Positions 12,586 through 33,655 of a stretch of DNA of 34,385 nt are shown piece by piece; positions within the stretch are counted from its first letter, which is position 1, and every line of letters begins with the position of its first letter. Below the pieces are notes generated by a model that was given only the letters and a program-made list of their open reading frames with translations, searched no databases and was not told where the DNA came from. This DNA is from Pseudanabaena frigida. Its GTDB lineage: Bacteria > Cyanobacteriota > Cyanobacteriia > Pseudanabaenales > Pseudanabaenaceae. The stretch is taken from the NCBI GenBank assembly GCA_003242085.1, contig QBML01000045.1:1-34385 (forward strand), read 5' to 3'. The translations under genes and the position numbers were made by a program.

Positions 12586-14439
12586 ATGCCCTCTCTGATC
12601 CCATCCCTCAACAGTTGCGTCGCCCGAATGACATCAGGTGAAAAGCGCTTTGCGGTGAGATTGGAGCAGAAACTTTATGACGATTATCTAATCTGGTATG
12701 ACGTGCCCATCGGCAAAAAGCAACTGCACCCCGATTTCATTGTCTTGCACCCGTTGAGAGGCTTATTGGTACTAGAGGTCAAAGACTGGAAAATCGACAC
12801 CATTCTCAACGTCACTAGAGCCAACTGGACAATCGCCGATCGCAACTCTGGCGAACCCAAACAAATCAAAAATCCCCTAGAACAAGCCCGAACCTATGTT
12901 CTTCATGCAGTAAAGCTACTTGAACGTGATGCCGAGCTAGTCTATGCGATCGCAAATGACCACGCTGGTAAATGTATCGTTCCCTATGGCTATGGTGTTG
13001 TGTTTACCAATATCACAAGGGCAGTTTTTGATAAACAAGGGTTAGGAGAAGTCATAGAGTCAAACTTGGTAATCTGCAAAGATGAGATGCTCGAAAGTGT
13101 TGACGATGGAGAGTTTCAACAAAGACTATGGGATATGTTTCCCTACCATTTCGATCGCACCCTAAGCCCGCACCAAGTCAATCGCATCCGTTGGCATATT
13201 TTCCCAGATATCGCGATTCAGCAATCTTTGTTGCCAGAACCAGAGGAAGATGAAGTAATAACACCCGTAGCGATCGCACCTGACCTCATCAAAATCATGG
13301 ACTTGCAGCAGGAGCAACTAGCGCGAAGTTTGCGGGGTGGACACCGTGTAATACATGGTGTGGCGGGAAGTGGCAAGACTCTAATCTTGGTTTACCGTTG
13401 CCAATTTTTGGCAGAGAAAAGCGAAAAGCCAATCTTGGCACTGTGCTATAACATCTCGCTAGCATCGAGGCTGAGACAAATGCTCAAAGAGAAAGGAATT
13501 GAGGAGAGCAAAGTATCGGTGCAGCATTTCCATAGCTGGTGTGCGGAAATGTTGCGACTCTACAAAGTTCCTTTACCCGATCGCACCAAGTACTAAGGAC
13601 GAGAGTTTTTCAGTCAATTAGTTCAGCAAGTGGTTCTAGGGGTAAATGAAGAGAAGATACCCAAGGGCAAATATGGAGCAGTGCTATTAGATGAATGGCA
13701 CGACTTCAAACCGACTTGGTTCAATCTCATCGTGCAGATGGTTGACCCCGAAACTAATTCGTTATTGGTGCTATACGACGATGCTCAGAGCATTTACGAA
13801 CGGCGAGAAAGAGGCAGATTCAGCTTTGCTAGTGTGGGCATAAAGGCACAGGGACGGACGACCATCCTCAAACTCAACTATCGCAACACTGAGGAGATTT
13901 TGAGCTTTGCCTATGAGTTCACCAAGAACATCATGCAGCCGACGGAAGATAGCGAAGAAGATAGTCCTGTTCTCATCAAGCCGCAGAGTGTGGGCAGACA
14001 TGGTGCAAAGCCTACGTTTACAAGACTCAGTAGCTTCTCAGCAGAGACAAAACATATATATCGCATAGGGGAATATCGCGAACGGGGTTTAGCTTGGAAT
14101 GATATGGCGATCTTGTATCGTTCGGACTTTATGGGGCGATCGCTGAGCCGTGCTTTGAAAGATGTCGATATTCCTGTGGAATGGTTGAACGAAGACAGTA
14201 ACAGCAAGCGTTACCAACCAGAAGCGCAAAGCGTGAAATTGCTAACGATGCATAGCAGCAAAGGTCTGGAGTTTCCAGTGGTGTTTATTCCTGGTGTTGG
14301 ATTTATGCCAAATCAGTCTCAGGCGATCGCGGACGAGGCAAGGTTGTTGTATGTAGCGATGACTAGGGCTACTGAGCATTTGGAGTTGAGTTGTGATCGG
14401 GATTCGGTGTTTGTCAGGAGGTTGGAGAAGGGGATTTAA
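12586..14439 (+). pseudogene. NERD-UvrD/Rep-type helicase interrupted by one stop codon
   Basis: The frame is continuous from ATG 12586 to the stop at 14437-14439 except for one TAA at 13594-13596 (TKY-stop-GREFF). A single C to T change (CAA) would explain it. The first half (336 aa) has a NERD nuclease-like domain with DFIVLHPL (Asp50) and LVLEVKDW (Glu64, Lys66), then Walker A GVAGSGKT at about 258-265. The second half has Walker B LLDEWHDF, LYDDAQSIY, LNYRNTEEI, TMHSSKGLEFPVVFIPG and LLYVAMTRATEHLEL, the SF1 helicase motifs. It would act on DNA. The lone stop may be a recent mutation, a sequencing error or read through. A GTG at 13630 could restart the second half, which lacks Walker A. 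Confidence 0.88.
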
Positions 14440-14542: not shown

Positions 14543-14623
14543 ATGAAAACATCAGTGTTCCACCGTGATATCAAACCTGCTAATTTAATGCGCCGTAGTA
14601 GCGATTGCTGCCTTTATAAATGA
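14543..14623 (+). pseudogene. Fragment of a Ser/Thr protein kinase (catalytic loop)
   Basis: A 26-codon open stretch reads VFHRDIKPANLMRRSS, the Hanks-type kinase catalytic loop (HRDxKPxN). No Gly-rich loop, Lys or DFG motif is found before or after it. It is only a scrap, but the motif is too specific to be chance. It lies directly upstream of the cyclase-ATPase gene, suggesting that a kinase gene once stood here. Confidence 0.7.
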
Positions 14624-14705: not shown

Positions 14706-16307
14706 ATGGTCAACACAACCAATACACCAAATCAAACGAATATTCTTGCCGCTATTGTCTTTACAGACGTAAAAGATTCCACACGGTTAATGGCTACTAA
14801 CCGAGATAGAACATTGAATGCAATTGTGCGCGATCGCCAGATACTTGAGTCTATTTGTAGTAACCATGGTGGAAAAGTCGTTAAATCTCTAGGTGACGGT
14901 CTGTTGATGTACTTTACTAGTGCTGAAAACTCCGTAACATCAGCGATTGTTATGCAGAGAACGCTCGCTGAGTTGTCTTCAGATCTCACTCCAGAAGATA
15001 TATTAGAACATAGGATTGGGATTCATCTAAGTGATGTCGTACTTATTAACGGCGACATTATGGGCGATGGTGTAAACATTGCATCGCGGATTCAGTCTTG
15101 TGCCAAACCTTGGGGCATTTGCATTTCACGAGTCATTTTTGATTCTATAAGTGCTGTTGTTAAAGTACCCATTGATGATGGAGGATTAAGGGAACTCAAA
15201 GGCATACCATACTGGGTAAGAGTTTATCACTTAATACCAGTAGAACCAAAGATCGCTGCCCGTGAAGATGATGGCATTATCCTTGAAGAACCATTAGGTC
15301 AGGTTCCCCCACATTCTCCTTTTTATATCGATCGCCCACCCATTGAGCGTGATTGCTTTGAAGCAATTGAAAAAACAGGAGCGCTAATCCGCATTAAAGC
15401 GCCGAGACAGATGGGAAAGTCTTCATTGTTAGGCAAAATTTTGCATCACGCTTCACAACATGGGTGCCAAATTCTTTCTCTCAATTTCCAAAGTGCAGAC
15501 AGTTCTGTATTTGCCGATCTAGATAAGTTTTTACGCTGGTTCTGTGCCATTGTGGGGAGGCAACTCAAACTAAAAAGTAAGATTAGCGATTCTTGGGATG
15601 AGATTTACGGTAGTAAAGACAATTGCACGGCATACTTTGAGGATTACATTCTTCCGAAAATCGGTGGTGCACTTGTGATTTCACTAGATGAAGTAGACTT
15701 ACTCTTTCGATACCGCGCGATCGCTGAGGACTTTTTTGGATTGCTCAGGGCTTGGCATGAAGCTGCAAAAAATCATGATTTGTGGAAGCGGTTGCGGTTG
15801 ATTGTCGTTCACTCTCAAGAAGTTTACATTCCACTAAATATCAACCAATCGCCGTTTAATGTTGGACTGCCAATAGAATTGAAGGAATTTACTTACGAAC
15901 AAGTGACCGAGCTTGTTGATCGGCACGAACTGAGATGGACGGATGTTGAGATAAATCGTCTAATGGCAATGGTTGGCGGACATCCTTATCTAGTGCGCGT
16001 TGCGTTGTATTACATTGCCCGAAATAACACTAATCTTGATGAGGTTTTAAGAAACGCTCCAACAGAAGCAGGTATTTATAGCGATCACTTGCGCCGCCAC
16101 CTATGGAACCTAGAGCAGAATCCTAAGCTTGCCGAAGCAATGAAAAAATTGGTGAGTAGTAAAGAAGCTGTGCGTTTGCCTTCAGAGGAGACCTTTAAAC
16201 TAGATTGTATGGGACTGTCATTACTTCAAGGGAATGATGCGATTCCACGGTGCAATCTTTATCAACTTTATTTTAGCGATCGCCTTGGTGTAGGTAAAAA
16301 TCTATGA
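14706..16307 (+). CDS. Class III nucleotide cyclase fused to an AAA_35-type ATPase
   Basis: This 533-aa protein has an N-terminal class III cyclase domain (about 12-170): [12 protein letters not shown] gives the first metal Asp (Asp21), [13 protein letters not shown] the second (Asp64), and [12 protein letters not shown] the transition-state Asn124 and Arg128. It therefore looks able to make cAMP or cGMP. The C-terminal ATPase (about 200-520) has Walker [12 protein letters not shown] (Lys238) and Walker [11 protein letters not shown] (about 322-331), as in AAA_35 signalling ATPases. Its stop overlaps the next gene's start (ATGA at 16304-16307). No membrane segment is seen. The ATPase may act as a sensor or switch that controls cyclase output; this is inference. 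Confidence 0.85.
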
Positions 16308-19300
16308 CAAGCCCAAACTATTCCTATCAAGTAGGAGGTTGTCTCCCCGCAAGTGCTTCTACTTATGTACGGCGACAAGCCGACGAGGATTTGTATGAGG
16401 GTATAAAAGCTGGAGAGTTTTGTTATGTACTGAACTCAAGGCAGATGGGCAAGTCTAGCTTACGAGTGCAAACTATGAAACGATTGCAAGCGGAAGGTTT
16501 TGCTTGTGTTGAAATCGATATGACTTCGATTGGAAGCCAAAATCTTACTGCCGATCAGTGGTATGCCAGTATTGTTCGCAATTTGGTGAGTGGGTTTAGA
16601 TTGGGTGAGCAAATTAATTTAAGGACTTGGTGGCGCGATCGCGATCTCATCTCGTCTGTTCAAAGGTTTAGCGAATTTATTGCAGAAGTTTTATTGGAAT
16701 TCATCTCACAAAGGATTGTCATTTTTATTGATGAGATTGATAGCGTACTTAGTCTTCCATTTAATGCCGATGATTTTTTTGCATCGATTCGCGCTTTTTA
16801 TAATAGCCGTGCCGATCGTCCTGATTTCTATCGCCTCACTTTTGTTTTGCTCGGTGTGGCGACTCCTTCCGATCTCATTAAAAGCAAGCATATCAGTACA
16901 CCTTTTAATATTGGTCGTGCGATTGAGCTACAGGGATTTGAAATTGATGAAGCCCAACCACTTGCAGATGGTTTAGCAGAAAAAGCTGCAAATCCTCGCG
17001 CTGTGGTGCGACAAATTCTTTACTGGACAAAAGGACAACCATTTCTGACCCAAAAGATCTGTAGATTAATTCTTACTTCTGAGGAATATATTAAGCCGAA
17101 TACAGAAGCAAAATTTGTTAAGAAACTAGTCTGGGGATCGATTATCGAAAATTGGGAAAGTCAAGATATTCCCGAACATTTGCGAACAATCCGCGATCGC
17201 TTGTTATGGCGTAGCGATCGTACCAGCCAACTTTTGGGTCTATATCGCAATATCTTGATGAAACAGGCTGTTATGTTTGATGGAAACAGTCAAGATCAAA
17301 TGGATCTGAGACTATCTGGCTTGGTCATTAACTATCAAAACCGCTTGATATCTCACAACGTTATTTATCAGAAGATCTTCAACATTGAATGGATAGATAG
17401 CGTATTAGCGAATCTATGTCCTTACTCGAAAAAAATGAACATTTGGCTTACATCTAGTAAACAAGATGATTCATTGTTGCTCTATGGAGAAGAACTACAA
17501 GTAGCTCTGGAGTGGACAAAGGATAAATCTTTAAGTGGCAACGATTTTCAGTTTCTTACTACGAGTTTGCGAAGAGTCAGACCTTTCAAATTTGAAGAAG
17601 AATTATCAGCTAATTCTGAAGAAATATTAGCACATATTTCCCTTGAATCATCGAAGCTTTTGTCTGAATTACAGACCCAGATAGAACTTGGCATAAAGCA
17701 AGATAATACTAAAGAGATGTTTGATATTTGGTTTGATCAAGGAGCAGCACTACAAAAAGAAAACAAATTTGAAGAAGCTGTGGCTGCTTACGAAAACGCT
17801 CTAAACTCTATATCTAAATATGAGGCTTGGTTTAATAAAGGTCTATCATTATGGAAATTAGGTAGATACGAAGAATCTATTGCTTCCTATGATAAAGCAA
17901 TAGAAATAAAACCTGATGACTTTGTATCATGGAACAATCGAGGTATTGCACTAGGAGAATTAGGAAGATTTGAAGAAGAGATCGACTCCTACAACAAAGC
18001 TTTAGAAATACAACCAGACTTTTCTGATTCATTTTATGGTAAAGCTTGTGCTTATACTTCTATAGGAGAAGCTGAAAAAGCCATAGATAATCTAGAAAGA
18101 GCTATTCAGTTGAATTCATTAGAGTTTCTTGATTTAGCAAGGAAAGATAAAGATCTTGACTCTCTGCGTTCCAATCCAAGATTTCAAGAATTAATTACCG
18201 ATTTACCCACTATTCTGAATGATAAGACACAAGATAATGATCCTGATAAATTTTATAAGCAAGGAGTTTCTCTTAGAGACATAGGTAGATATGAAGAAGC
18301 TATTGTTTCCTTCGATATAGCATTGAGAATCAAACCAGATTTTTATGATGCATGGTATAAGAGAGGTTCTACGCTTAGGAATTTAGGTAAATATGAAGAA
18401 GCATTAGACTCCTACGATCAAGCTTTGAAAATTAAACCCTATAAAGGCGTAGTATGGTTTCAACGAGGTCATGTTCTATTAAAATTAGACAAATATGAAG
18501 AGGCTATTTCGTCTTTCGATAGAGCAACACTGAACAACCCTGATTCTGACGAAGCTTGGTATAAACGTGGTTTTGCTTTAGGTAAATTAGGTAGATACGA
18601 AGAAGAGATAGAATCTTATGATAAAGCTTTAAAAATTAATCCTTACAAATATAATGCATGGTATAACCGAGGAATTGCTCTAAGAGAACTTGGTAGGTAT
18701 GAAGAATCCATTATGTCCTATGACAAGGCACTAGAGATCAAACGTGACGACTGCGAATTATTGAACAATCGAGGTGTTGCGCTTGTTCATTCAGGTAGAT
18801 ACGTAGAAGCGATCGCATCATATGAAAAAGTTTTAGAGATTCAACCAGAGCATTCAAGAGCTTTGTATAACAAAGCTTGTGCCTATGCTTTACAAGGAGA
18901 AATTGAACCTGCCCTAGAGAATCTTCAAAAAGCTATTGAGTTAAATCAATCAGAGTATTGTGATTTGGCAAAGAATGACGAAGACTTTGATTTAATTCGT
19001 GCTGATTCAAGATTTCAGGAATTGATTTATGCTATCATCATTAATGAAACTAATTTTTTATCAGCACCCGATCCAGATATCAATTCTTTGCGAAATATCG
19101 ATTGCAATCGGCTGCAAGATCTATTATCATCTGGTAAATGGCAGGAAGCAAACAGCGAAACCAACCTTCTTATATTGAAATTAACTAATCGAGAAAAAGA
19201 AAGGTTTCTTAGGGCAGATGATATCAAAAAAATTCCTCAAATAGATCTTCTAACTATCGATAGATTATGGCTGAATTATAGTAATGAGCGATTTGGGTTT

Positions 19301-20155
19301 AGTTTGCAACAACGAATTTGGAATGATTGCCATGCTTCGCTAGATATTATTAATGGAGCCTATGATTTTGGATCTAAAGTTGGATGGTGTGTTAACAATC
19401 TGTGGTTACATTGGAAAGATATGCACTACTCCTTAAATGCTCCTGAAGGTCATTTACCTACATTGCTTCTTAGAGAAAGGACTAAAAGGATTTTCCTTAA
19501 GCATTTCTTTTCCCATATTGAAGATTGTCTTCAACTATTTTCCTATATTGAAGATGGTCTTCAGCTATATTTAGTGAATATAGTTTCAACGAATATAGAA
19601 GGTAAATTTGTTGGTCAGTTTCCAGTAAAAGATAAGCTAGTAAGAATTTATCAAGGTGATATCACTAATCTTGAGGTAGACGTTATTGTTAGTTCTGACA
19701 CTAATAATTTATCAATGCTTGGTGGTATAGCTAGAAGAATTCGCAAGGTAGGAGGAGAAGAAATCTTACATGAAGCTAGAAACTTAGCTCCAGTATTACC
19801 AGGACAAATTGCTGTCACAAGAGCTGGGAAGTTAAATGCAAAAAAAATATTTCATGCATCAGTTTCAACTAAAGCCTCATTTGAACAAGTGATTTGCACT
19901 TGTATAAATAGATCCGATCAAAATTCATTTTCTAGTATTGCACTACCCTTATTAGGTACTGGAGGGGCAGGTTTTCCTTTAGATCTAGCGTGGCAGATAA
20001 CATTAAAAGAAGTGGTAAAATTGCTATCTCACCAAACTCAAACTCTTAAAGAGGTTGTTTTAGTGATTTATGAAAAAGAAGTTGTAAAATCTCTTGATGT
20101 CGTAGGAACCATAGAAAAAGCTAATAGGGAAGGATGGACATCTCTTTTGTCTTAA
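16304..20155 (+). CDS. AAA_35 ATPase-TPR-GUN4-macro domain protein
   Basis: This 1283-aa protein has four regions. (1) An AAA_35 ATPase at about 5-370, with [11 protein letters not shown] (Walker A) and [12 protein letters not shown] (Walker B). (2) Two TPR blocks at about 480-640 and 650-910, with helical repeats of the AWYKRGxALxxLGRYEEAI type. (3) A GUN4 domain at about 920-1065, with [38 protein letters not shown] and [13 protein letters not shown]4 binds porphyrins in chlorophyll-related signalling. (4) A macro domain at about 1110-1260, with [29 protein letters not shown] and [14 protein letters not shown], the ADP-ribose-binding fold. The usual NAAN is replaced by SSDTNN, so hydrolase activity is uncertain. 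It overlaps the cyclase-ATPase gene by 4 bp and is probably co-translated. Acts in the cytoplasm. Confidence 0.87.
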
Positions 20156-20265: not shown

Positions 20266-20308
20266 ACTACAATCTTGGCTAATTTCCCCTAGAGCCATAT
20301 GCAATCGC
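20266..20308. repeat. Short dispersed repeat ending in an octamer-like site
   Basis: CAATCTTGGCTAATTTCCCC followed by TAGAGCCATATGCAATCGC. Near-identical copies lie at 21716-21756, 28806-28846 and 31083-31118; partial copies lie at 24219-24240 and, inverted, at 34262-34285. In this copy and the one at 21716 it is joined directly to the helicase 3'-end fragment at the octamer GCGATCGC. Confidence 0.65.
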
Positions 20309-20417
20309 GGACGAGGCAAGGTTGTTGTCTGTGGCTATGACTAGGGCTACTGAGTATTTAGAATTGTCGTGCGATCGGGATTCAGTGTTTGTGAGGAGAT
20401 TGGAGAGGGTGCTTTAG
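20301..20417 (+). pseudogene. Helicase 3'-end fragment 1
   Basis: 39 codons in frame, ending in TAG, encode [19 protein letters not shown] and then [15 protein letters not shown]. This is the final part (motif VI and C-terminus) of the helicase at 12586-14439, with mostly silent differences. No start codon or upstream helicase sequence is present: the fragment begins at the octamer, directly after the short repeat. The unlike final residues (ERVL) and silent changes argue for an old, separate copy. Confidence 0.8.
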
Positions 20418-20591: not shown

Positions 20592-21086
20592 ATGCTAAAT
20601 CTAACTTATTCTATTGGTATTTGGAAATTTGTTGGAATTTACTCAATATATAGTCTAGTCAGTATATATCTTTTCTATCTGACTTCATTGCCTGGTCTCG
20701 GCGCACTAATTATCATTGGTGTTACTGCTGTTTACTATATAGCAATGGGATTTGTGATGTTAACTACTGCATTTGTGAGATCGCGACGATCTCGAACATG
20801 GCATATTAGAATTTCTTTCTCTCTTATGCTTTTGCTTGTAATTCTTGTACTTCAAGTTATTATTCTCTTATGCAATTTCAACAGTAGTCTCCCCTCAATG
20901 GGTTATTACGCATCATGTATTCCTTCTCAAAATTTTATTCAGCGTATTATAGCGCCATTACCAGAGGGATCTGATTGCTCTACTCCGCCTTGGATCAGTG
21001 GAAGTTGGTTGTTTATTTTATATCTGCTTTATAGCTTTACTGGAGGGATTTTCTGGCTTTGCGCAATTTTCTCCGCTAGAAAATAA
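20592..21086 (+). CDS. Four-TM membrane protein of unknown function
   Basis: This 164-aa protein has hydrophobic segments at about 11-31, 38-62, 73-95 and 138-160. A basic turn RSRRSRTWHIR follows TM2, and an outside loop at about 97-137 has Cys110 and Cys129. I do not recognise the family. It starts at ATG 20592. It lies between helicase 3'-end fragments 1 and 2, together with the DUF3592 gene on the opposite strand, and may be cargo of that segment. Confidence 0.6.
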   Translation: MLNLTYSIGIWKFVGIYSIYSLVSIYLFYLTSLPGLGALIIIGVTAVYYIAMGFVMLTTAFVRSRRSRTWHIRISFSLMLLLVILVLQVIILLCNFNSSLPSMGYYASCIPSQNFIQRIIAPLPEGSDCSTPPWISGSWLFILYLLYSFTGGIFWLCAIFSARK

Positions 21087-21715: not shown

Positions 21716-21756
21716 CACAATCTTAGCAAATTTCCCCTAGAACCATATGCGATCGC
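21716..21756. repeat. Short dispersed repeat joined to a helicase fragment
   Basis: CAATCTTAGCAAATTTCCCC then TAGAACCATATGCGATCGC; the copy is nearly the same as at 20266-20308 and is fused to the helicase fragment at GCGATCGC. Confidence 0.65.
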
Positions 21757-21862
21757 GGACGAGGCAAGGTTGTTGTATGTGGCGATGACTAGGGCTACTG
21801 AGTATTTAGAGCTTTCATGCGATCGGGATTCAGTGTTTGTGAGGAGATTGGCGAGTGTGTAG
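21749..21862 (+). pseudogene. Helicase 3'-end fragment 2
   Basis: 38 codons in frame from GCGATCGC to a TAG at 21860-21862. The product matches the helicase C-terminus ([26 protein letters not shown]) but ends in ASV. The stop overlaps the hairpin element that starts at 21859, so the end was probably replaced by that insertion. Confidence 0.8.
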
Positions 21863-22747: not shown

Positions 22748-22846
22748 GAATTTTCTGTTCACAAAATTTGGTAAGCAAATCGATGCACGAACTGCTCTAT
22801 TATAATGACCGCCATTTAATGACTGTGGAAGGTGTACCGAAGTGTG

Positions 22847-22999
22847 GGATTTATGCCGAATCAGTCTAAGGCGATCGCGGACGAGGCGAGGTTGTTGTAT
22901 GTGGCGATAACTAGGGCTACTGAGTATTTGGAGTTGTCGTGCGATCGAGATTCCGTATTTGTTAGGCGATTGGAGAAGGCGATTACTGGTGTGGGTTAG
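22847..22999 (+). pseudogene. Helicase 3'-end fragment 3
   Basis: 51 codons in frame: [20 protein letters not shown] then [18 protein letters not shown], ending in EKAITGVG and TAG. It matches the end of the helicase at 14299-14439, but this copy is longer and starts at GGATTTATGCC, upstream of the octamer. There is no start or upstream helicase sequence. It lies just upstream of the NucS-like gene's 3' end (on the opposite strand). Confidence 0.8.
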
Positions 23000-23032: not shown

Positions 23033-24100
23033 TTATTGCTTCAGCCATGATTCAACAGTCATAGATGATAAAGTGTCCCAGAAATCTGGCTTTTCAGAAT
23101 TATCTCGACATCTTAAGTATGTCTCTATTTCTACTGGAGTCTTAGACTTACTTGATGAACTCTGTATCAAATGAGGTCGTTTTTCTCGTGGCACCTGTTC
23201 CCACTCTTGGAGTGTTTTCATTTTGCCAAAACCATCTGGAATATGACCTACATGAGAAATTGTTATTCCATTTGTCCAAATACGGAGACGACCAATAATA
23301 GGCTTTTTGATATAAGCAATCTCATTTGTGCCTGCTTTGTAAACTGCTCTGTTGATGGAATTTGGAGTAGGTAGCCATAAAAATAAGATTGGTTTTTGGC
23401 TAGTTTGCTGAAAACAAATTTCTGCACATACTCTCGTTTTCCCAGAGCCATAAAATATAGATTTTTTCTCAACAATTTCTTTCATTCGTTGACTACAACC
23501 AAGGATTTTGTTTCTTACTTGCAGAATGCCTTCCTGTTCTTCTTTTGCACAACTACCTAACCATTTAAGCAATTGTTCAGGGGGATCGGGAATATCACCT
23601 GAGCTAGATAATTCAATTGGTTGATACGGGATTAGATACTTTTTATGAATAAATTCTTTGCCAACTTTTTGAAGAAGAAAGTGAAAACATTCTTCTTCCC
23701 TAAAAACAGAAAAATTGAAGAGTGTAAAGTTAAGTTTGCTATGCTCTCTATCAATTAAATTATGACGATGGTAGCTTGGCGCGATCGTAATGAGTTGTAC
23801 TGGACGAGAATAATCTACTTCTTGTGAGAACGGTCTTTCTTCTACAAGATTTGCATAATAACGAGTTAACTGCTGAATTAAATACCGATCTTCAACATTC
23901 TTTAACTCTAGAATTACAAGACCTTTATCCCTATCAATAGCAATAATGTCACATATTTCACCATTACAGTTATATTGTTGCTTGAGGGGCGTAAGTTCAA
24001 ATAGCTCAGTAAGACTAGTCCATACGAATTTCTCTAATGCTGCTTCACTTATAAACTCCCATCCATTAGATGTCTCATGCAAAGCTACGCCACTAGTCAT
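23033..24100 (-). CDS. NucS-like (DUF91) PD-(D/E)XK nuclease-type protein
   Basis: This 355-aa protein carries the NucS/RecB-type core near the N-terminus: EICDIIAIDRDKGLVILELKN, with Asp51, Glu65 and Lys67 in the D...ExK pattern, followed by LIQQLTRYYANLVEE. NucS-type enzymes cut mismatched or branched DNA, but here the rest (about 165-355, with PFLFLWLPTPN-like and GRLRIWTNGI motifs) is not a known domain. Whether it is active on DNA is inference. Start ATG 24098-24100. It sits on the far side of helicase fragment 3 and may be another cargo gene of the repeated unit. Confidence 0.72.
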   Translation of the reverse strand: MTSGVALHETSNGWEFISEAALEKFVWTSLTELFELTPLKQQYNCNGEICDIIAIDRDKGLVILELKNVEDRYLIQQLTRYYANLVEERPFSQEVDYSRPVQLITIAPSYHRHNLIDREHSKLNFTLFNFSVFREEECFHFLLQKVGKEFIHKKYLIPYQPIELSSSGDIPDPPEQLLKWLGSCAKEEQEGILQVRNKILGCSQRMKEIVEKKSIFYGSGKTRVCAEICFQQTSQKPILFLWLPTPNSINRAVYKAGTNEIAYIKKPIIGRLRIWTNGITISHVGHIPDGFGKMKTLQEWEQVPREKRPHLIQSSSSKSKTPVEIETYLRCRDNSEKPDFWDTLSSMTVESWLKQ

Positions 24101-25737: not shown

Positions 25738-28128
25738 CTACTTTGATTTTCGATTTGGGTTTGATATCGTTTTTGTTAAACCTAGACATTTATCCAAACT
25801 GTTTTCAATATCACTAATGGGTGGAGTAAATATTGAACTAATAAGGGTTTGTTTACCTAATTCTGTGCAAGTAGGTGCTGAATCCTTTTCGATTGAACCA
25901 TACCAGCCACAACGTTTATTTGTGTATTTTCTCCATAAATGTTCAATATCTCTAAATGTTTCACATGGGAACCGCTCAGCCTCTTCCGCATTGTCAATGG
26001 TTCCATTACCGTTCAAATCAGCTTTAGCGCCAAAGTCAGACATTAAAATTTTATAAGTAGTCCGTAATGCTCCAGACCGAGCATTTTCAATATCGGTCAT
26101 AGAGGCATCACCATTGACTTTTCCAAACATTTTATTACTGAGTTCAACTTCTAACTGTGGAAGTCGAGATTGTCTAATAGTCTCCACAATTCTATCTTGA
26201 GCTTTTTTAGCAATTACGTTAATAATTTGCCCATCTTGAGATTGAAACAGTGCGGGGGTAGTTTTAATTGCTTTATTTAGTGAGGTTGTATCTGTCAAAA
26301 TCTTGCGATAGTATGCAAGTGCTAATTGAACGTCCTCTTCTTTTCTAGTAGAACTTAGCCTATCGGCTTCTTCTAAAAAACTAGGCAGTTTTTTGAGAAG
26401 CTCTGGTTTAGATGGCTCAATCCCAAGTAAGAATGCTTTTTGTACTTGTTGCGCCTGCTGCTGCTGTTGCCATGCAAACAATATAGCTAGCAAGGCGGCA
26501 ACTGATAGTCCAGCTATTGATATGGCAAGCTTTATTCCTAACTGCTGACGCGCTTTATATGCTTTTTGCCAGCTAGTGCGGTCTTCTACACTTGCTTGAA
26601 TAAATACTTTCTCAGTTTGGCTTAAGTCAGATTCCTGTTTTAGAAACCAATCTTCAGCCTCAATCAATGGTTTTCCTCTTAATAAAGCTTCGCGATCGCG
26701 ACCACTTATTTCCCACTGCTTAATAATTATTCGTAGGCGGTCGCGCCAATTGAGAAAAATTTGGTTGTTTTCAAGCCAATTTCGTAATAACTCCCAGTGG
26801 CGAAATAAAGCTTCATGGGTTATCTCCGCCGTTTCTCCATCTGTTTGAGTAGAGAGGGTAATTAGTCTTACCTTTGGGTCTGCAAAACTACCTATTATTT
26901 GTTTAACTTGTTCTGCTGTCCCCAAGGAAGATACAAAATTTGCAAGCAGTTCTCTGTGTCGAGCGTATTTGATCGTATCGCCAAGTTTAACCTGTTGAAC
27001 TAGGCTCAAAAAAACTCCTCGAGCAATTTGCTGCTCAATAGGACTAAATTTCTCATAAATTCTTTGTGCTTCACCAGCTAAAGCTCCCCCTACTCCTCCA
27101 ATTCGCTCTATTGTCGCGATTGGAGTTTCTCCTTGTCTCATACCTTCCCAAATCTGAGCTAAAGCAAACTGGAGTAATGGCAAGGCTCCCTCGCGACCAT
27201 CAGTTTGCTCAATTAGAAGCTTTATAGTTGCTTTATCAAGTGGATATCTCGCCTGTTTTGCTGGCTCTGCGATCGCCTCTTGTAAACACTGCGTATCCAT
27301 TGTTGGTACTAGGAAACCTTGCGATGAGAACAAACGGTTTAAAGTCGAATGCTTTTGCGTCTCATTCAAAAAGTCACTACGCATTGTCAGAATAACTGAG
27401 ACATACCGAGATCTATCACTTGCTGCATAAAGCAAGTTGCCAATCATGGCATCTCTTATACTGTCATCCTTGCATTGAGAATAGACCTCCTCAAATTGAT
27501 CCACCAATACAACTAATGGTGTTATATCAATTTCTGGCAAGGCACTAGCGATCCTCTGTAACCCATCATATTGACCTGATGTATTTTTGAGTTTTAACTC
27601 TTCAACAAATTCCCTTGTCTTCTTTACTGGAATTAAGTCATTTCCAGCTATCCGTGCTAGCACAGTAGCTAATGCTTCTAGCGGTTGTGTTCTTGGAACT
27701 AATATTGCCACCCTTGCTTTTTCTTGAGCTGGCAAAGGATGCCTTCCCAAGTAAGGAATCAGTCCAGCACGAACTAGGGAAGACTTACCAGAACCCGAAG
27801 GACCAAAAATAGCCAACAAACGAGTCTCTAAATTTTGTAGGTCACGAAATTCTTCCCACAGATGTTGAATATCTTGCGATCTCCCAAAGAAATTAGCGCT
27901 GTCAGATTCCTGAAACGCTAATAGACCTTTGTATGGATTAGCTCCGATATCTAAAGAACTAGCTTTAGCTACTGGGCTTTCGGTCGCAGTAGGATTTATG
28001 ATTGCCTGTCCACCACAGACATATACTATGATTCCACCATATACTTGACCGATCGCTTGGTTGCCATCTCCATCTACTCTTTGATTAATCTGAGGTATAA
28101 CATTTGGGTTTAGCAAGTCATCAGACAT
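25738..28128 (-). CDS. nSTAND1-type ATPase with TM segment and EF-hand
   Basis: This 796-aa protein has a short N-terminal beta-rich tail (QINQRVDGDGNQAIGQVYGG) similar to the tail of the upstream gene. The nSTAND1 ATPase follows (about 62-440): NPYKGLLAFQESDSANFFGR, Walker A FGPSGSGKSSLV (109-117) and Walker B PLVVLVDQFEEVY (about 207-214). The TM segment is at about 535-552 (ISIAGLSVAALLAILFAW). The C-terminal part has KVNGDASMTDIENA and a canonical EF-hand loop DLNGNGTIDNAEE (704-715), so calcium binding outside the cytoplasm is likely. Such STAND proteins are signalling or defence switches. It lies 18 bp after the upstream gene and 4 bp before the next, so an operon is clear. Confidence 0.87.
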   Translation of the reverse strand: MSDDLLNPNVIPQINQRVDGDGNQAIGQVYGGIIVYVCGGQAIINPTATESPVAKASSLDIGANPYKGLLAFQESDSANFFGRSQDIQHLWEEFRDLQNLETRLLAIFGPSGSGKSSLVRAGLIPYLGRHPLPAQEKARVAILVPRTQPLEALATVLARIAGNDLIPVKKTREFVEELKLKNTSGQYDGLQRIASALPEIDITPLVVLVDQFEEVYSQCKDDSIRDAMIGNLLYAASDRSRYVSVILTMRSDFLNETQKHSTLNRLFSSQGFLVPTMDTQCLQEAIAEPAKQARYPLDKATIKLLIEQTDGREGALPLLQFALAQIWEGMRQGETPIATIERIGGVGGALAGEAQRIYEKFSPIEQQIARGVFLSLVQQVKLGDTIKYARHRELLANFVSSLGTAEQVKQIIGSFADPKVRLITLSTQTDGETAEITHEALFRHWELLRNWLENNQIFLNWRDRLRIIIKQWEISGRDREALLRGKPLIEAEDWFLKQESDLSQTEKVFIQASVEDRTSWQKAYKARQQLGIKLAISIAGLSVAALLAILFAWQQQQQAQQVQKAFLLGIEPSKPELLKKLPSFLEEADRLSSTRKEEDVQLALAYYRKILTDTTSLNKAIKTTPALFQSQDGQIINVIAKKAQDRIVETIRQSRLPQLEVELSNKMFGKVNGDASMTDIENARSGALRTTYKILMSDFGAKADLNGNGTIDNAEEAERFPCETFRDIEHLWRKYTNKRCGWYGSIEKDSAPTCTELGKQTLISSIFTPPISDIENSLDKCLGLTKTISNPNRKSK

Positions 28129-28846: not shown

Positions 28847-29705
28847 ACTAATCTTATTACTCACAACATTACTTGTTGTCGGTTGTGGACAATCTGATAC
28901 TCCTACGACAACCGCAGCAACACCTACTCCGAAACAGCCAACACAAACGCTAGACAATGACTATGGCAATGTCAACTTAAAGGCAGGTAATCCTAGCAAA
29001 GCCACGACCGATCCCGCGAGTGCCGACAACTACTTGCTACTCAAACCTCAGTATGTGCTGAGCTATAACAAAAGCCGCAATATAGCGAATTGGGCATCAT
29101 GGCAATTAAATAAATCTTGGATGGGTGATGCCCAACGTAAAGACCAATTTAGACCCGATCCTGCTTTGCCGAAAGGTTGGTATAGGGTGGTGACTAAAGA
29201 CTATAGCGGATCGGGATTCGATCGCGGACATCTTGTTAATTCAGAAGATCGCACAAAAAATGATGTGGACAACGCTGCAACCTTTTTATTAACCAATATC
29301 CTCCCCCAATCACCCGATAATAACAGGGGTGTTTGGGAAGAGTTAGAAAGCTATAGCCGTAAGTTGGCGCGAGATGGCAAAGAGTTGTACATCATTGCTG
29401 GTGGGAATGGTGTTGGCGGCGAGAGTAGTAATGGCATGGCTTCTCAATTGAAGGGGAAAGTTACTGTTCCATCAACAATGTGGAAGGTTATCTTGGTGCT
29501 AGACGCTCCCGCCAAAGGTTTAGCAGGAGTCAATAGCAGCACACGCACGATCGCGGTAATCATGCCAAACAAGATGGGACGTGATAAAAAGTGGCAAGAT
29601 TTTTGCACAACTGTTGGCGAAGTGGAGAAACTAACGGGTTACAACTTCTTTAGTAATGTGCCGCCCGACATCCAAAAGCAGATTGAATCAAAGAAAGAGT
29701 GTTAA
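28842..29705 (+). CDS. NucA-like DNA/RNA non-specific endonuclease lipoprotein (start damaged)
   Basis: From 28842 the frame reads a lipoprotein signal (PLILLLTTLLVVGC), a Thr/Pro-rich linker, then the nuclease domain: LLKPQYVLSYNKSRNIANW, FDRGHLVNSEDRT with the catalytic DRGH motif, NNRGVWEELE with the metal-binding Asn and nearby Glu. Homologues such as Anabaena NucA cut DNA and RNA and need a metal ion. The repeat before it ends CATATG-TAATCG. If it were the consensus CATATGCGATCG the protein would start MRSPLILLL; here the second codon is TAA (28839-28841). No ATG, GTG or TTG follows in frame until TTG at 29034, which would drop the signal. The nuclease is likely silenced. It is tail-to-tail with its inhibitor gene. 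Confidence 0.85.
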   Translation, partial: SPLILLLTTLLVVGCGQSDTPTTTAATPTPKQPTQTLDNDYGNVNLKAGNPSKATTDPASADNYLLLKPQYVLSYNKSRNIANWASWQLNKSWMGDAQRKDQFRPDPALPKGWYRVVTKDYSGSGFDRGHLVNSEDRTKNDVDNAATFLLTNILPQSPDNNRGVWEELESYSRKLARDGKELYIIAGGNGVGGESSNGMASQLKGKVTVPSTMWKVILVLDAPAKGLAGVNSSTRTIAVIMPNKMGRDKKWQDFCTTVGEVEKLTGYNFFSNVPPDIQKQIESKKEC

Positions 29706-30091
29706 GTTTCGACTACCGTAGTTTTGAGTCCCACCAGATCGGAACCGATCGCACCGACGATATAAACATCAATCTCGACTGTGCCAACTCTAAAAACTTG
29801 GACATTTTCTAATGTGGCGATCAACCCTTGCAGATCGCGAAATCTTTGTGCGATTTCCCGATCTTCATCGTCATACCAATCTTGATCGGTGACAACGGGT
29901 GCAAAGAAATCTTCTAAGGTAACAGATTCAATCGGTGTGTCTAATGGTTGTAGTGATCGCTCAAGGATTGTTTCAGGTGAGAGAGTTGCAGATTCCCACG
30001 AAAAAGGTTCTAGGGGATATTCGGACTCACTGGGAAATAGTAAATCTTTGGATAGGGTCGAGAGGCGATCGGTGATTTCTTTGGAAGTCAT
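29702..30091 (-). CDS. nuiA: Nuclease A inhibitor-like protein
   Basis: This 129-aa protein matches Anabaena NuiA in character and order of motifs: LLFPSESEYPLEPFSWE near residue 18, ESVTLEDFFAP and DQDWYDDEDREIAQRFRDL in the middle, and VQVFRVGTVEIDVYIVG then GLKTTVVET at the end. NuiA binds and blocks the NucA active site. Its stop overlaps the nuclease stop (TTAA at 29702-29705). The gene is intact (start ATG 30089-30091, no strong ribosome site). The 5' part is duplicated at 30862-30945. Confidence 0.88.
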   Translation of the reverse strand: MTSKEITDRLSTLSKDLLFPSESEYPLEPFSWESATLSPETILERSLQPLDTPIESVTLEDFFAPVVTDQDWYDDEDREIAQRFRDLQGLIATLENVQVFRVGTVEIDVYIVGAIGSDLVGLKTTVVET

Positions 30092-31172: not shown

Positions 31173-32264
31173 TCAAAATTTACAAACAGTTTCAGGCTTG
31201 ATTGGACAAACCTTTTCAGCAATCGGATTGGAGTCAAGTTCTAGGTGAGCTATATTTGTCAAACTCGCAATAGGTTTAGTATCTCTAATTTGATTGATAG
31301 AAAGGTAAAGGGCAACTAAGTCCGTCAAACTCGAAAGAGGCTCAATATCTCTGATTTGATTGCGTTGAAGTGTGAGGATAGTCAATTTAGTCAAACCTTC
31401 TAGAGGCTTAACATCAACGATCTGATTGCTATCGAGTCTTAGGTCATTTATTTTAATCAAATTCGCGAGAGGTTTAATATCGCTGATTTGATTGCTGGAA
31501 AGATCGATTCTAGTCAATTTAGTCAAACTCGAAAGAGATTTAATATTACTGATTTGATTGCTATCGAGGAAGAGCAGAGCTAAATTTGCCAAGCCAGTTA
31601 GGGGTTTTACATCATTGATGTGATTGTTAGAAAGGTAGAGTCCACCTAATTTCGTTAACCTCGCGAGTGGGTTAATATCGCTAATTTTATTGTATTGAAG
31701 TTCGAGCCGAACTAAATTTATCAAGCCTGTAAGAGGTTTAACATCGCTGATTTGATTAAAGGGGAGATCGAGTACAGTCAAATTGGTTAAACCCTCTAGT
31801 GCCTGTATATCTCTGATTTGATTGTTATCAATCAAGAGAACAGACAAGTTTCTCAAACGAGCAAGAGGTTTTATATCTTTGATTTGATTGAAGGAAAGGT
31901 AAAGTTCATTCAATTTTGTCAAATTAACAAGAGGTTTAATATCGCTAATTTGATTGAAGGAAAGGTTAAGCCAAGTCAAGTTTGTCAAACTTGCAAGAGG
32001 CTTAATATCGCTGATTTGATTTTCAACAAGATAGAGTTCAGAGAGACTGTTAAGTTTGGAATCAGCTAACTCGCAGTCCTGAGTTTTAGCCGTCTTTAGC
32101 AGTATATCAATCGTCTTTTTGGTTTCAGTAGGGAGAGAATCTTTTTGCAGACACCACTGTTCAAAACTTTGAGGATGATTCGGAACTGCCCCTAACTGTG
32201 GGACATGACACGACAAAAGTACTGTGAAAACTGAAAGAATACTGGGTACGAAATGACACTTCAT
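31173..32264 (-). CDS. Secreted leucine-rich repeat protein (22-residue type), 363 aa
   Basis: The N-terminal signal region (SILSVFTVLLSCHVPQLG) is followed by VPNHPQSFEQWCLQKDSLP, a cap with Cys, and 12 full 22-residue repeats of the type LTNLTxLxLxxNQISDIKPL plus a capping unit that ends VCPIKPETVCKF with two cysteines. Such LRR domains bind proteins and are curved solenoids (internalin/SDS22-like). No membrane anchor or sorting signal is seen at the C-terminus, so it is probably free in the periplasm or outside. Paralogous to 32346-33581: N-terminal cap and C-terminal cap are the same. Repeats of 66 bp are seen in the DNA. Confidence 0.9.
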   Translation of the reverse strand: MKCHFVPSILSVFTVLLSCHVPQLGAVPNHPQSFEQWCLQKDSLPTETKKTIDILLKTAKTQDCELADSKLNSLSELYLVENQISDIKPLASLTNLTWLNLSFNQISDIKPLVNLTKLNELYLSFNQIKDIKPLARLRNLSVLLIDNNQIRDIQALEGLTNLTVLDLPFNQISDVKPLTGLINLVRLELQYNKISDINPLARLTKLGGLYLSNNHINDVKPLTGLANLALLFLDSNQISNIKSLSSLTKLTRIDLSSNQISDIKPLANLIKINDLRLDSNQIVDVKPLEGLTKLTILTLQRNQIRDIEPLSSLTDLVALYLSINQIRDTKPIASLTNIAHLELDSNPIAEKVCPIKPETVCKF

Positions 32265-32345: not shown

Positions 32346-33581
32346 CTAAATATCTGGTGTTGAGAAATTACAAACATTCTCTCGTTTGAAAGGACAAATT
32401 TTGTTGTCTATTGGATTTTCGTAGAGAAAAAGAACAGTCAATTTAGTTAATCTCGATAGAGGCATAATGTCTTTGATTTGATTGCTAATAAGATGGAGCC
32501 TAGTCAAATTAATCAAATTCCCAAGGGGTTTAACATTACTGATTTGATTTCTATCAAGATTTAGTCCAGACAAGTTTGTCAAACCCTTTAGAGGTTTAAT
32601 ATCTATAATCTGATTAGATCCTAAATTGAGTTCAGTCAAATTAGTTAAATTTGCTAGAGGATACACATTGGTGATGCGATTGCTTTCAATGCTAAGTTCG
32701 GTCAAATTAGTTAAACTTGCTAGGGAATTCACTTCGTTGATGCGATTGTTATTGAGACTGATTCCACGCAAATTGGTCAAACCAGCAAGAGGCTTAATGT
32801 CGCTAACTTCATTGCCAATTAGGCTTAGATATGTCAACTTCACTAAACCTGTAAGCGGATTAATATCGCTGATGTGATTGTCGTAGAGGCTGAGCCAAGT
32901 CAAATTAGTTAAAGCTCTTAGAGGTTTGACATTTTGGATTTTATTACTGCTTAGCCAAAGTCTAGTCAAATTAGTTAAACCTGCTAGAGGTGCGATATCT
33001 TTAATCTGATTTTCTTCGAGATAAAGTTTATGTAAATTAGTCAAATTTGCTAGAGGCTTAAGATCGCTGATTTGATTGCCATAGATAGTGAGTTGGGTCA
33101 AATTAGTTAAACCTGCGATTGGATTTAGATTGCTAATTTGATTAAAAACTAATTCTAGATGAGTCAAATTAGTTAAATTTGCAAGAGGTTTAAGATCGCT
33201 AATTTGATTTCTAGTAATAGCGAGGTGAGTCAAATTAGTTAAACTCGCTAATGTAATTAGATCGGTTTTTTTGTTACCATAAATTTTAAGTTCGGTCAAA
33301 TTAGTCAAACTGGCTAATGGCTTCAGATCGCTGATTTGATCGCTGACAAAGTCTATTGTAGAAAGTCTGTTTAGATTGAACTCAGCTAACTTGCAGTTTT
33401 GCGTACGAACTTTTGCTAACATTACCTCAACTGTATGCCTAGTTTCGGCTGGAAGAGAATCTTTTTGCAGACACCACTGCTCAAAGGTATGAGGATGATT
33501 CGGAACTGCTTGTGCCATTGGAACGTGAAGCGATGGAAATGCGGCAACAATTGAAATGCTAAAGGCTAAAGAATATTTCAT
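32346..33581 (-). CDS. Secreted leucine-rich repeat protein (22-residue type), 411 aa
   Basis: I start this at ATG 33579-33581 (MKYSLAFSISIVAAF, with GGAG 6-8 bp before); a longer frame to 33620 exists without a better start. After a signal peptide comes VPNHPHTFEQWCLQKDSLP, nearly as in the neighbouring paralogue, and then 14 full 22-residue repeats and a cap ending ICPFKRENVCNF. The repeats differ in number and order from the neighbour, as expected from tandem duplication plus repeat gain or loss. Function inferred only as ligand binding outside the cell. Confidence 0.9.
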   Translation of the reverse strand: MKYSLAFSISIVAAFPSLHVPMAQAVPNHPHTFEQWCLQKDSLPAETRHTVEVMLAKVRTQNCKLAEFNLNRLSTIDFVSDQISDLKPLASLTNLTELKIYGNKKTDLITLASLTNLTHLAITRNQISDLKPLANLTNLTHLELVFNQISNLNPIAGLTNLTQLTIYGNQISDLKPLANLTNLHKLYLEENQIKDIAPLAGLTNLTRLWLSSNKIQNVKPLRALTNLTWLSLYDNHISDINPLTGLVKLTYLSLIGNEVSDIKPLAGLTNLRGISLNNNRINEVNSLASLTNLTELSIESNRITNVYPLANLTNLTELNLGSNQIIDIKPLKGLTNLSGLNLDRNQISNVKPLGNLINLTRLHLISNQIKDIMPLSRLTKLTVLFLYENPIDNKICPFKRENVCNFSTPDI

Positions 33582-33655
33582 AAAAGCTCCAATTTTTAAG
33601 ACTCGATCGCTTATCCACAAATCAAAATGTTTTCATTCAGGATATTGATTGCATT

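Follow-up and report, generated by a model that had tools for sequence, protein, structure and literature searches.

Gene pair and domain composition

The stretch of DNA analysed here (the window, 34,385 nucleotides) originates from the cyanobacterium Pseudanabaena frigida (assembly GCA_003242085.1, contig QBML01000045.1, positions 1 to 34,385 of the forward strand) and carries two overlapping plus-strand genes, designated A and B. Gene A (14706-16307, +) encodes a protein of 533 amino acids (aa), the predicted output chain, in which a class III nucleotide cyclase (aa 9-182, 14730-15251) is followed by a STAND-like ATPase of the AAA_35 family (aa 196-524, 15291-16277). Gene B (16304-20155, +) encodes 1283 aa and is the predicted sensing chain. 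It comprises an AAA_35 domain of predicted STAND/Orc-type fold (16316-17422; aa 5-373 by our own hidden Markov model (HMM), 14-359 by Pfam), a TPR superstructure of about 11 repeats detected with Pfam and NCBIfam (approximately aa 473-908, 17720-19027), a GUN4 domain (aa 929-1055 in the Pfam protein scan; 19088-19480, DNA bounds by genome search) and a macro domain region at the C-terminus (aa 1116-1283, 19649-20152). The first 4 bp of B coincide with the last 4 bp of A.

These two open reading frames (ORFs), the AAA_35 module in each of them and the 4-bp overlap had been proposed in an original prediction made from the sequence alone, and the coordinates were found as claimed. The domain calls of that prediction, cyclase-AAA_35 and AAA_35-TPR-GUN4-macro, likewise hold in the profile search. 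For protein A, Pfam gave Guanylate_cyc at 15-148 (E 3.8e-9, 36.9 bits compared to a cut-off of 21.9) and AAA_35 at 196-524 (E 3.8e-145). For protein B, AAA_35 at 14-359 (E 1.8e-30), about eleven TPRs, GUN4 (PF05419) at 929-1055 (E 9e-35) and Macro (PF01661) at 1134-1232 (E 1.1e-14) were obtained. Because of these E-values the calls cannot be attributed to chance. Among the NCBIfam models listed, none for AAA_35 or for the whole of A or B matched above cut-off, except for the TPR-end domain NF047558. Scans for promoters and terminators remained at the level of shuffled DNA (21 compared to 20.9 +/- 4.1 and 5 compared to 4.5 +/- 2.2).

A recurring two-gene module

Judged by sequence comparison, the pair belongs to a two-gene module that is widespread in cyanobacteria. 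AAA_35 proteins occur in two types, type A with a strong Pfam match and a variable N-terminal domain, and type B with a weaker match and a variable C-terminal arm, and the order is usually A then B. The family was found in 33 of the 38 genomes searched, including that of P. frigida itself, whose nine AAA_35 matches comprise four ordered pairs and one domain standing alone. The adjacency rate was determined solely from the loci L041-L120 (L and G denote loci and genomes in our numbering). They were fetched by similarity to protein A, which has at least 514 relatives; the 80 loci used ranked best among these and hence represent near kin. These loci contain 82 A genes with a core of at least 300 residues, of which 14 were dropped for having less than 3 kb of room downstream. 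The original prediction had named as its refutation that the two genes are never adjacent in other genomes; for the A-B module, a same-strand B gene was found no more than 1.5 kb downstream of 50 of the remaining 68 A genes (within 150 bp for 31), with five overlaps of 4 bp and three of 1 bp. The loci L001-L040 had been chosen from AAA_35 matches with pairs in mind and are biased; there, 41 A genes were evaluated (two more were dropped for room), with B within 1.5 kb for 31, farther off for three and none for seven.

The domains on either side of the ATPases vary. Labels were assigned with HMMs built here and cross-checked with Pfam on 42 A proteins and 20 B tails. On the 42 A proteins, Pfam detected 13 kinase, 12 CHAT, eight TIR_2 and four cyclase domains as well as one GGDEF, one trypsin and one LuxR-type HTH domain, and the B arms across the loci contain WD40, TPR, GAF/PAS, CHASE2, CHAT, GUN4, FGE-sulfatase or macro domains. 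Trees of both ATPases were calculated with FastTree (local support only) from 81 of the 85 pairs with a gap of at most 3 kb in both locus sets, four being dropped as short or duplicate. The Mantel correlation between the A and B trees was 0.83, a value not reached in any of 999 permutations. On the A tree the label of the N-terminal domain changes 12 times, compared to a mean of 33.0 for shuffled labels; 14 of the 81 pairs have no labelled N-terminal domain.

A genes also occur on plasmids of several cyanobacteria (36 records), and 12 of the 15 plasmid entries listed are annotated only as "AAA-like domain-containing protein". On the Nostoc plasmid pTCL26-01_A (L211, 826-9842), four consecutive AAA-like genes adjoin a NACHT gene, and their lengths and order fit two A-B pairs. 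A phage origin was considered as well and rejected: protein A gave no phage matches at E 1e-8, and in PHROG the cyclase matched with an E of 1.5e-4 and the TPR part with a best E of 2.7e-36, while no other part gave a match.

The two ATPases

Both ATPases of the window have intact Walker A and B motifs (GKS plus DE). Among relatives of B (alignment A3), the Gly, Lys, Asp and Glu residues are present in 57 of 57 proteins; among relatives of A (alignment A2), Gly, Lys and Asp are present in 65 of 65 and Glu in 60 of 65. Downstream of the ATPase core both chains show a motif of the type GxP, which we take to be a STAND motif. It reads GGHP in A and GGQP in B, and its G and P are invariant in all rows of the three alignments used (42 in A1, 65 in A2, 57 in A3).

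The AlphaFold2 (AF2) model of B residues 1-401 (pLDDT 91.0, pTM 0.86) matches the archaeal ATPases SSO1545 and PABY2304 (2fna and 2qen) with a Z of 20.3 and an rmsd of 4.3 and 4.5 over 316 and 313 residues. Further fold matches were Orc2 (Z 17.4), the plant NLRs RPP1 (17.0) and NRC4 (16.6), CED-4 (15.6) and Apaf-1 (15.0), and Foldseek additionally gave the defence protein Avs4 (E 1.1e-5). Based on these matches, together with the Walker A/B and GxP-type motifs invariant in the 57 B proteins, the AAA_35 domain of B is best read as a member of the STAND/Orc-clade ATPases. In the model of A, the ATPase part matches 2qen in Foldseek (E 9.1e-11).

Probable exchange of the output domain

A constant core extends from the start of the A ATPase through the A/B junction to beyond the end of the B ATPase (15277-17559, +) as one unbroken block with 81% DNA identity to the sister locus L005. 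Compared to L015, a locus of a congener, the block comprises 15285-17560 with 77% identity. In both comparisons the DNA outside the core differs on both sides. The conserved core with its differing outer ends points to a layout of output and ATPase on the first chain and ATPase and arm on the second, in which the ends are exchangeable. The A ATPase of the window forms a three-member clade (support 100, starred) with those of L005 (87% identity) and L015, and both of these A genes bear a kinase. The B arms of this trio comprise WD40 in L005, WD40 and TPR in L015 and TPR in the window; GUN4 is present in all three, the macro domain in the window and L015 only.

DNA comparison with L005 and L015 revealed a kinase remnant in front of the cyclase (14555-14608, +). 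It corresponds to the region coding for the catalytic loop, reads FHRDIKPANLMRRSSD in one frame and ends 97 bp upstream of the cyclase start. Over 54 bp it is 94% identical to the kinase part of the L005 A gene, and over 48 bp 85% identical to that of L015. Since the window A gene carries this scar and groups with two kinase-bearing A genes, the cyclase has probably replaced an earlier Ser/Thr-kinase output, the core remaining the same. Of the 54 scar bases, 36 are also found in another species (locus L155). There, on a 25-kb contig of G020, the pair is present in decayed form (L155, 7631-9972; 86% DNA identity) with an internal stop in A, a broken B and no macro domain.

The cyclase of protein A

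The cyclase retains all six recognised catalytic residues (D21, K60, D64, D117, N124 and R128). We take D21 and D64 to be the metal-binding Asp residues, N124 and R128 the transition-state residues, and K60 and D117 the purine-selecting Lys/Asp pair of adenylyl cyclases. The intact metal Asp and transition-state Asn/Arg claimed in the original prediction are therefore confirmed. From K60 and D117, ATP is the predicted substrate and cAMP the predicted product. In the AF2 model of A (pLDDT 90.5, pTM 0.69), the cyclase fold resembles 3mr7 (Z 26.5, rmsd 1.7, 170 aligned) and also the Mycobacterium avium adenylyl cyclase Ma1120.

Nine cyclase-bearing A proteins with ten cyclase domains were found, and all six residues are kept in seven of the ten domains. 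Seven of the nine proteins also contain a TIR domain, which is missing in the window and in L052, and the active site of the L052 cyclase is degenerate. One A protein (L030, 2396-5032) comprises two tandem cyclases followed by TIR and AAA_35, and its two active sites show complementary losses, the first lacking the Arg and the second both metal Asp residues. Mammalian adenylyl cyclases are pseudo-heterodimers with a similar pattern, and the complementary losses argue for cyclase dimerisation being under selection in L030. Related cyclases are attached to other proteins, too. The genome of P. frigida contains two cyclase-NACHT proteins (L156, 2333-4591, 752 aa; L157, 2504-5332, 942 aa), which share about 40% identity with A in the cyclase part, and in congeners related cyclases are fused to NB-ARC (L158, 46% identical) or CHAT (L160, 40%).

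The GUN4 and macro domains of protein B

The GUN4 domain of B matches Synechocystis GUN4 (1y6i) with an E of 7.7e-16, and the macro domain matches PARP14 (2.4e-22) and TTHA0132 (3.1e-15) in the PDB sequence search. Elsewhere, the A gene next to a GUN4-bearing B gene carries a kinase, TIR or CHAT domain (L005, L015, L077, L084). The only other macro-bearing GUN4 B gene found is that of L015, beside a kinase A gene, while two other cyclase A genes are paired with WD40 B genes. An intact pair of cyclase A and GUN4/macro B was seen only in the window, one congener having the decayed copy described above. A search of the 338 genomes of the class with the macro domain (E up to 1e-12) gave matches in 23, and only in P. 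frigida itself and in G020 did the match lie in a frame of more than 1000 aa; more divergent macro fusions may escape this query, and within the genus three of 26 genomes match at E 0.001. A combined GUN4 and macro query matched 220 of 386 genomes of the phylum, the matches listed lying mostly in the GUN4 part.

The original prediction had joined cyclic-nucleotide production with tetrapyrrole and ADP-ribose sensing in one operon. Its joint function stands as a functional tie between A and B, indicated by recurrent adjacency and ATPase co-divergence, but not for cyclase, GUN4 and macro as a co-selected set. A fixed system of these three domains was rejected in view of the rarity of the macro domain, the apparent change from kinase to cyclase, the mixed A partners of GUN4 B genes and the WD40 partners of cyclase A genes. 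For the window itself, linked sensing of tetrapyrrole and ADP-ribose with a cAMP output is plausible from the domains present. Between the GUN4 and macro domains, a 30-bp in-frame tandem duplication (19508-19568) is present in two copies.

Cassette structure of the surroundings

The 5' neighbour of the pair is a NERD-UvrD helicase gene (12586-14439, +; Pfam and PADLOC, C3a187 NERD+UvrD), which consists of two ORFs in the window (12586-13596 and 13630-14439) and of a single ORF of 618 aa in G022 (L204). The last about 140 bp of this gene (14298-14438, +) recur as direct repeats at 20276-20417, 21724-21858 and 22846-22984. The gene end and the first of these repeats (20276-20417, +; 85% over 116 bp) form the left and right boundaries of a cassette containing the A-B pair. 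The repeats delimit two further cassettes, one with an ORF of 164 aa and a DUF3592 gene and one with a superoxide dismutase gene.

In another species, two contigs of G009 (L200, L201) also contain the second and third cassettes next to these repeats (91% and 95% identical); there, the second follows a different neighbour (a CHAT-TPR gene) and the third directly follows the helicase end. At least two such repeats were detected in five more loci of the genus (L199, L202, L203, L205, L206) and one in L204, L208 and L209. From this arrangement it looks like the A-B pair resides in an exchangeable cassette, and the helicase-end repeats possibly mark a site of cassette exchange or accretion. No recombinase was seen at the cassettes, although no search aimed at recombinases was made.

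A proposed two-chain switch and its rivals

We consider it rather probable that A and B constitute a split, two-chain STAND (NLR-like) switch, in which B senses and A provides the output, and whose role most likely lies in conflict or stress response and not in housekeeping. The adjacency of A and B, the co-divergence of their ATPases, the predicted fold of B, the changing domains at both outer ends and the related cyclases fused to NACHT, NB-ARC or CHAT speak for it. By pairing of the two ATPases, B would keep A silent or recruit it. The trigger would act at the arm of B, presumably as a protein bound to the TPRs, with two candidate gates that could apply singly or together: the tetrapyrrole level, read by GUN4, and ADP-ribose or a partner modified with it, read by the macro domain. 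The nucleotide would then be exchanged, leading to ATP-dependent pairing and joint oligomerisation of A and B, by which the cyclase domains of A would be brought together. Since the active site of class III cyclases forms at the dimer interface, this would switch on the synthesis of cAMP. Such a switch could respond to phage, damage or photo-stress. The alternating output domains in the A slot and the STAND-like fold of AAA_35 fit a conflict or stress response, and in this respect the second-messenger switch suggested in the original prediction is retained, although not as a fixed set of cyclase, tetrapyrrole and ADP-ribose sensing. The consulted sections of PMC7159879 and PMC8195603 include the domains of the A slot among those with an effector or signalling role in conflict systems.

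Several observations weigh against this switch or limit its generality. No validated defence model covers the pair; PADLOC gave weak PycC matches to the cyclase, a PD-T4-6 match to the GUN4 part and TPR matches. No same-strand B gene lies downstream of 15 of the 68 A genes, and for three it is farther off, while B genes without an adjacent A exist in P. frigida itself (C67:46401) and in L036, so A and B may not depend strictly on each other. Common descent of the species may account for part of the co-divergence of A and B, and some of the 81 pairs are near-copies. Within the clade of three A genes, the fork joining the window and L005 has a support of 90, not starred. Compared to the alignments described above, A1 shows the Walker-B Glu in only 19 of 42 A proteins and Asn in another 19; the A and B chains therefore need not work alike everywhere, and the proteins with Asn perhaps represent a subclass with an inactive A ATPase. 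Since the VIA-align fold list of A was filled by the cyclase, the fold of the A ATPase is deduced from the single Foldseek match to 2qen and the Pfam family shared with B.

The candidate ligand-binding domains show deviations as well. The macro domain lacks the catalytic Asn/Asp of the MacroD type, reading VSSDTN...LGGIAR where MacroD has VNAAN...GGGVDG, while the GDIT segment is kept. This makes a role as reader likelier than hydrolysis, and the domain may bind a ligand without hydrolysing it. The key residues of GUN4 are kept in part: Trp192 of Synechocystis is conserved, the position that we take to be Phe196 is occupied by Met, and the Arg position is not confidently alignable. The importance of Phe and Arg in Arabidopsis GUN4 and of Trp192 in Synechocystis is taken from the excerpts available of PMC8967248.

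The same GUN4 and macro domains could alternatively belong to a regulator of photosynthesis or stress, in which GUN4 reads free porphyrins, the macro domain reads ADP-ribose, and B tunes the cAMP production of A; through a CRP-type regulator, this would affect motility, heme or light acclimation. The clear GUN4 match (E 9e-35) and the small-molecule sensors GAF, PAS and CHASE2 in other B arms speak for it, and GUN4 fusions are proposed as sensors of photosynthetic status in the portion of PMC7159879 consulted. However, the same core combines with kinase, CHAT, TIR or cyclase outputs, lies in an apparently exchangeable cassette and, in its A part, occurs on plasmids (36 records), all of which would be unusual for housekeeping, and the Met at the Phe196 position does not favour porphyrin reading. 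Altogether, we regard this regulator as unlikely, though worth keeping in mind. It is improbable that A and B are two loosely linked genes, i.e. independent multidomain ATPases standing together by ancestry after a tandem duplication of AAA_35, with no need to interact. Such a history would account for the shared Pfam family, for the 15 of 68 A genes without B and for lone B genes, but not for two distinct AAA_35 types in fixed order, overlaps of 4 bp or 1 bp in eight of the 68 cases and a co-divergence with r 0.83. A Pycsar-like defence, in which the cyclase responds to infection by making cCMP or cUMP and the cell is killed by a separate effector gated by cyclic nucleotides, appears very improbable to us. 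Its starting point are the PADLOC matches of PycC models to the cyclase, but with a best E of 2.3e-8 (31.8 bits) these matches are weak and might be obtained with class III cyclases in general, the Lys/Asp pair by which adenylyl cyclases select purines is retained, and of the ten window proteins covered by PADLOC no neighbour of the pair was recognised as a Pycsar effector (TIR or TM type). The 164-aa ORF of the second cassette (20592-21086) gave no family match; membrane helices were not looked at in this ORF.

Going beyond the two-chain switch as such, we tentatively propose, with more doubt than confidence, a cyanobacterial class of split NLRs, in which arm and output reside on separate chains that meet only via their paired STAND-type ATPases. 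With the two ATPases lying next to each other in the DNA, an exchange of one end or the other would leave the core untouched. Recombination would have turned a kinase output into a cyclase output, leaving the kinase scar, and through the GUN4-macro arm the release of cAMP would depend on tetrapyrrole and on ADP-ribose, as might arise from an attack on NAD.

Comparison with known systems

The pair shares with STAND/NLR switches (AP-ATPase and NACHT types; CED-4, plant resistosomes, Avs) the ATPase fold, as predicted for B, the Walker and GxP-like motifs, N-terminal outputs and a C-terminal repeat arm. In canonical NLRs all of these are combined on one chain, whereas here the output is on A and the repeats are on B, each chain having its own ATPase. 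This separation lowers the case for a canonical NLR, but not that for a STAND ATPase.

Among known systems, a two-gene STAND operon with variable GT4/HEPN effectors is similar in having adjacent STAND genes, one with changing effectors, and a proposed hetero-multimer (PMC8195603, in the text portions at hand). According to the same portions, one STAND protein of that operon has eroded nucleotide-binding motifs and the family is close to CR-ATPase/Dap3, whereas both chains of the window keep their Walker motifs. The domain repertoire differs from that operon, too, comprising kinase, CHAT, TIR and cyclase on one side and WD40, TPR, GAF, CHASE2 and GUN4 on the other. The VMAP ternary and EACC1 conflict systems, as far as covered by the parts of PMC7159879 consulted, share exchangeable cNMP cyclase, kinase, TIR, caspase-like, GUN4 and Macro parts, and a cyclase can displace the caspase domain of EACC1. 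In contrast to the VMAP ternary system, which consists of a MoxR ATPase, a vWA component and VMAP, the core described here is composed of two AAA_35 domains. Membership in the VMAP systems was rejected, as neither MoxR nor vWA was among the families listed (best 25 per protein) for the 32 window proteins scanned with Pfam.

The GUN4 part of B matches the C-terminal part of the PD-T4-6 defence model (PDLC04062, model positions 303-447 of 450, E 1.1e-34), which we take as a hint only; AAA_35, macro and cyclase have no match to PD-T4-6. PD-T4-6 is a single-protein, kinase-type system. Another possible relative is a STAND family named after two genes with the prefix Npun, which presumably stands for Nostoc punctiforme. 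PMC8195603 mentions this Npun2340/2341 family following Leipe et al. 2004, and its two consecutive gene numbers would suit a pair of A and B; its possible identity with AAA_35 is given as a lead only.

In the open-access literature searched, no description of a two-chain AAA_35 form was found; a paper on sigma factors (PMC11119718, in excerpt) is relevant to AAA_35 (PF14516). The parts and the logic of the pair are already known, and as far as this literature goes the two-chain AAA_35 form is the new element. If the proposed reading is true, it adds a two-chain NLR-like switch that is widespread in cyanobacteria and present on their plasmids. GUN4, which is familiar from the synthesis of chlorophyll, would then be part of a sensor of the conflict type with a cyclic-nucleotide output. 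The locus would also represent a natural experiment, as an immune-type receptor would have received a different output while its core was otherwise conserved, and whether this core signals regardless of the output domain thereby becomes a directly testable question.

Further genes of the window

Downstream of the pair, two genes code for defence-like proteins, one with weak matches to NucS_C and PADLOC PDC-S18 (23033-24100) and the other an nSTAND1 ATPase protein of 796 aa (25738-28128). An Endonuclease_NS gene for a DNA/RNA non-specific endonuclease (29034-29705, +) faces a gene for a NuiA-type nuclease inhibitor (29702-30091, -), the ends of both overlapping by 4 bp. Two adjacent genes on the minus strand (31173-32264 and 32346-33620) code for leucine-rich-repeat proteins.

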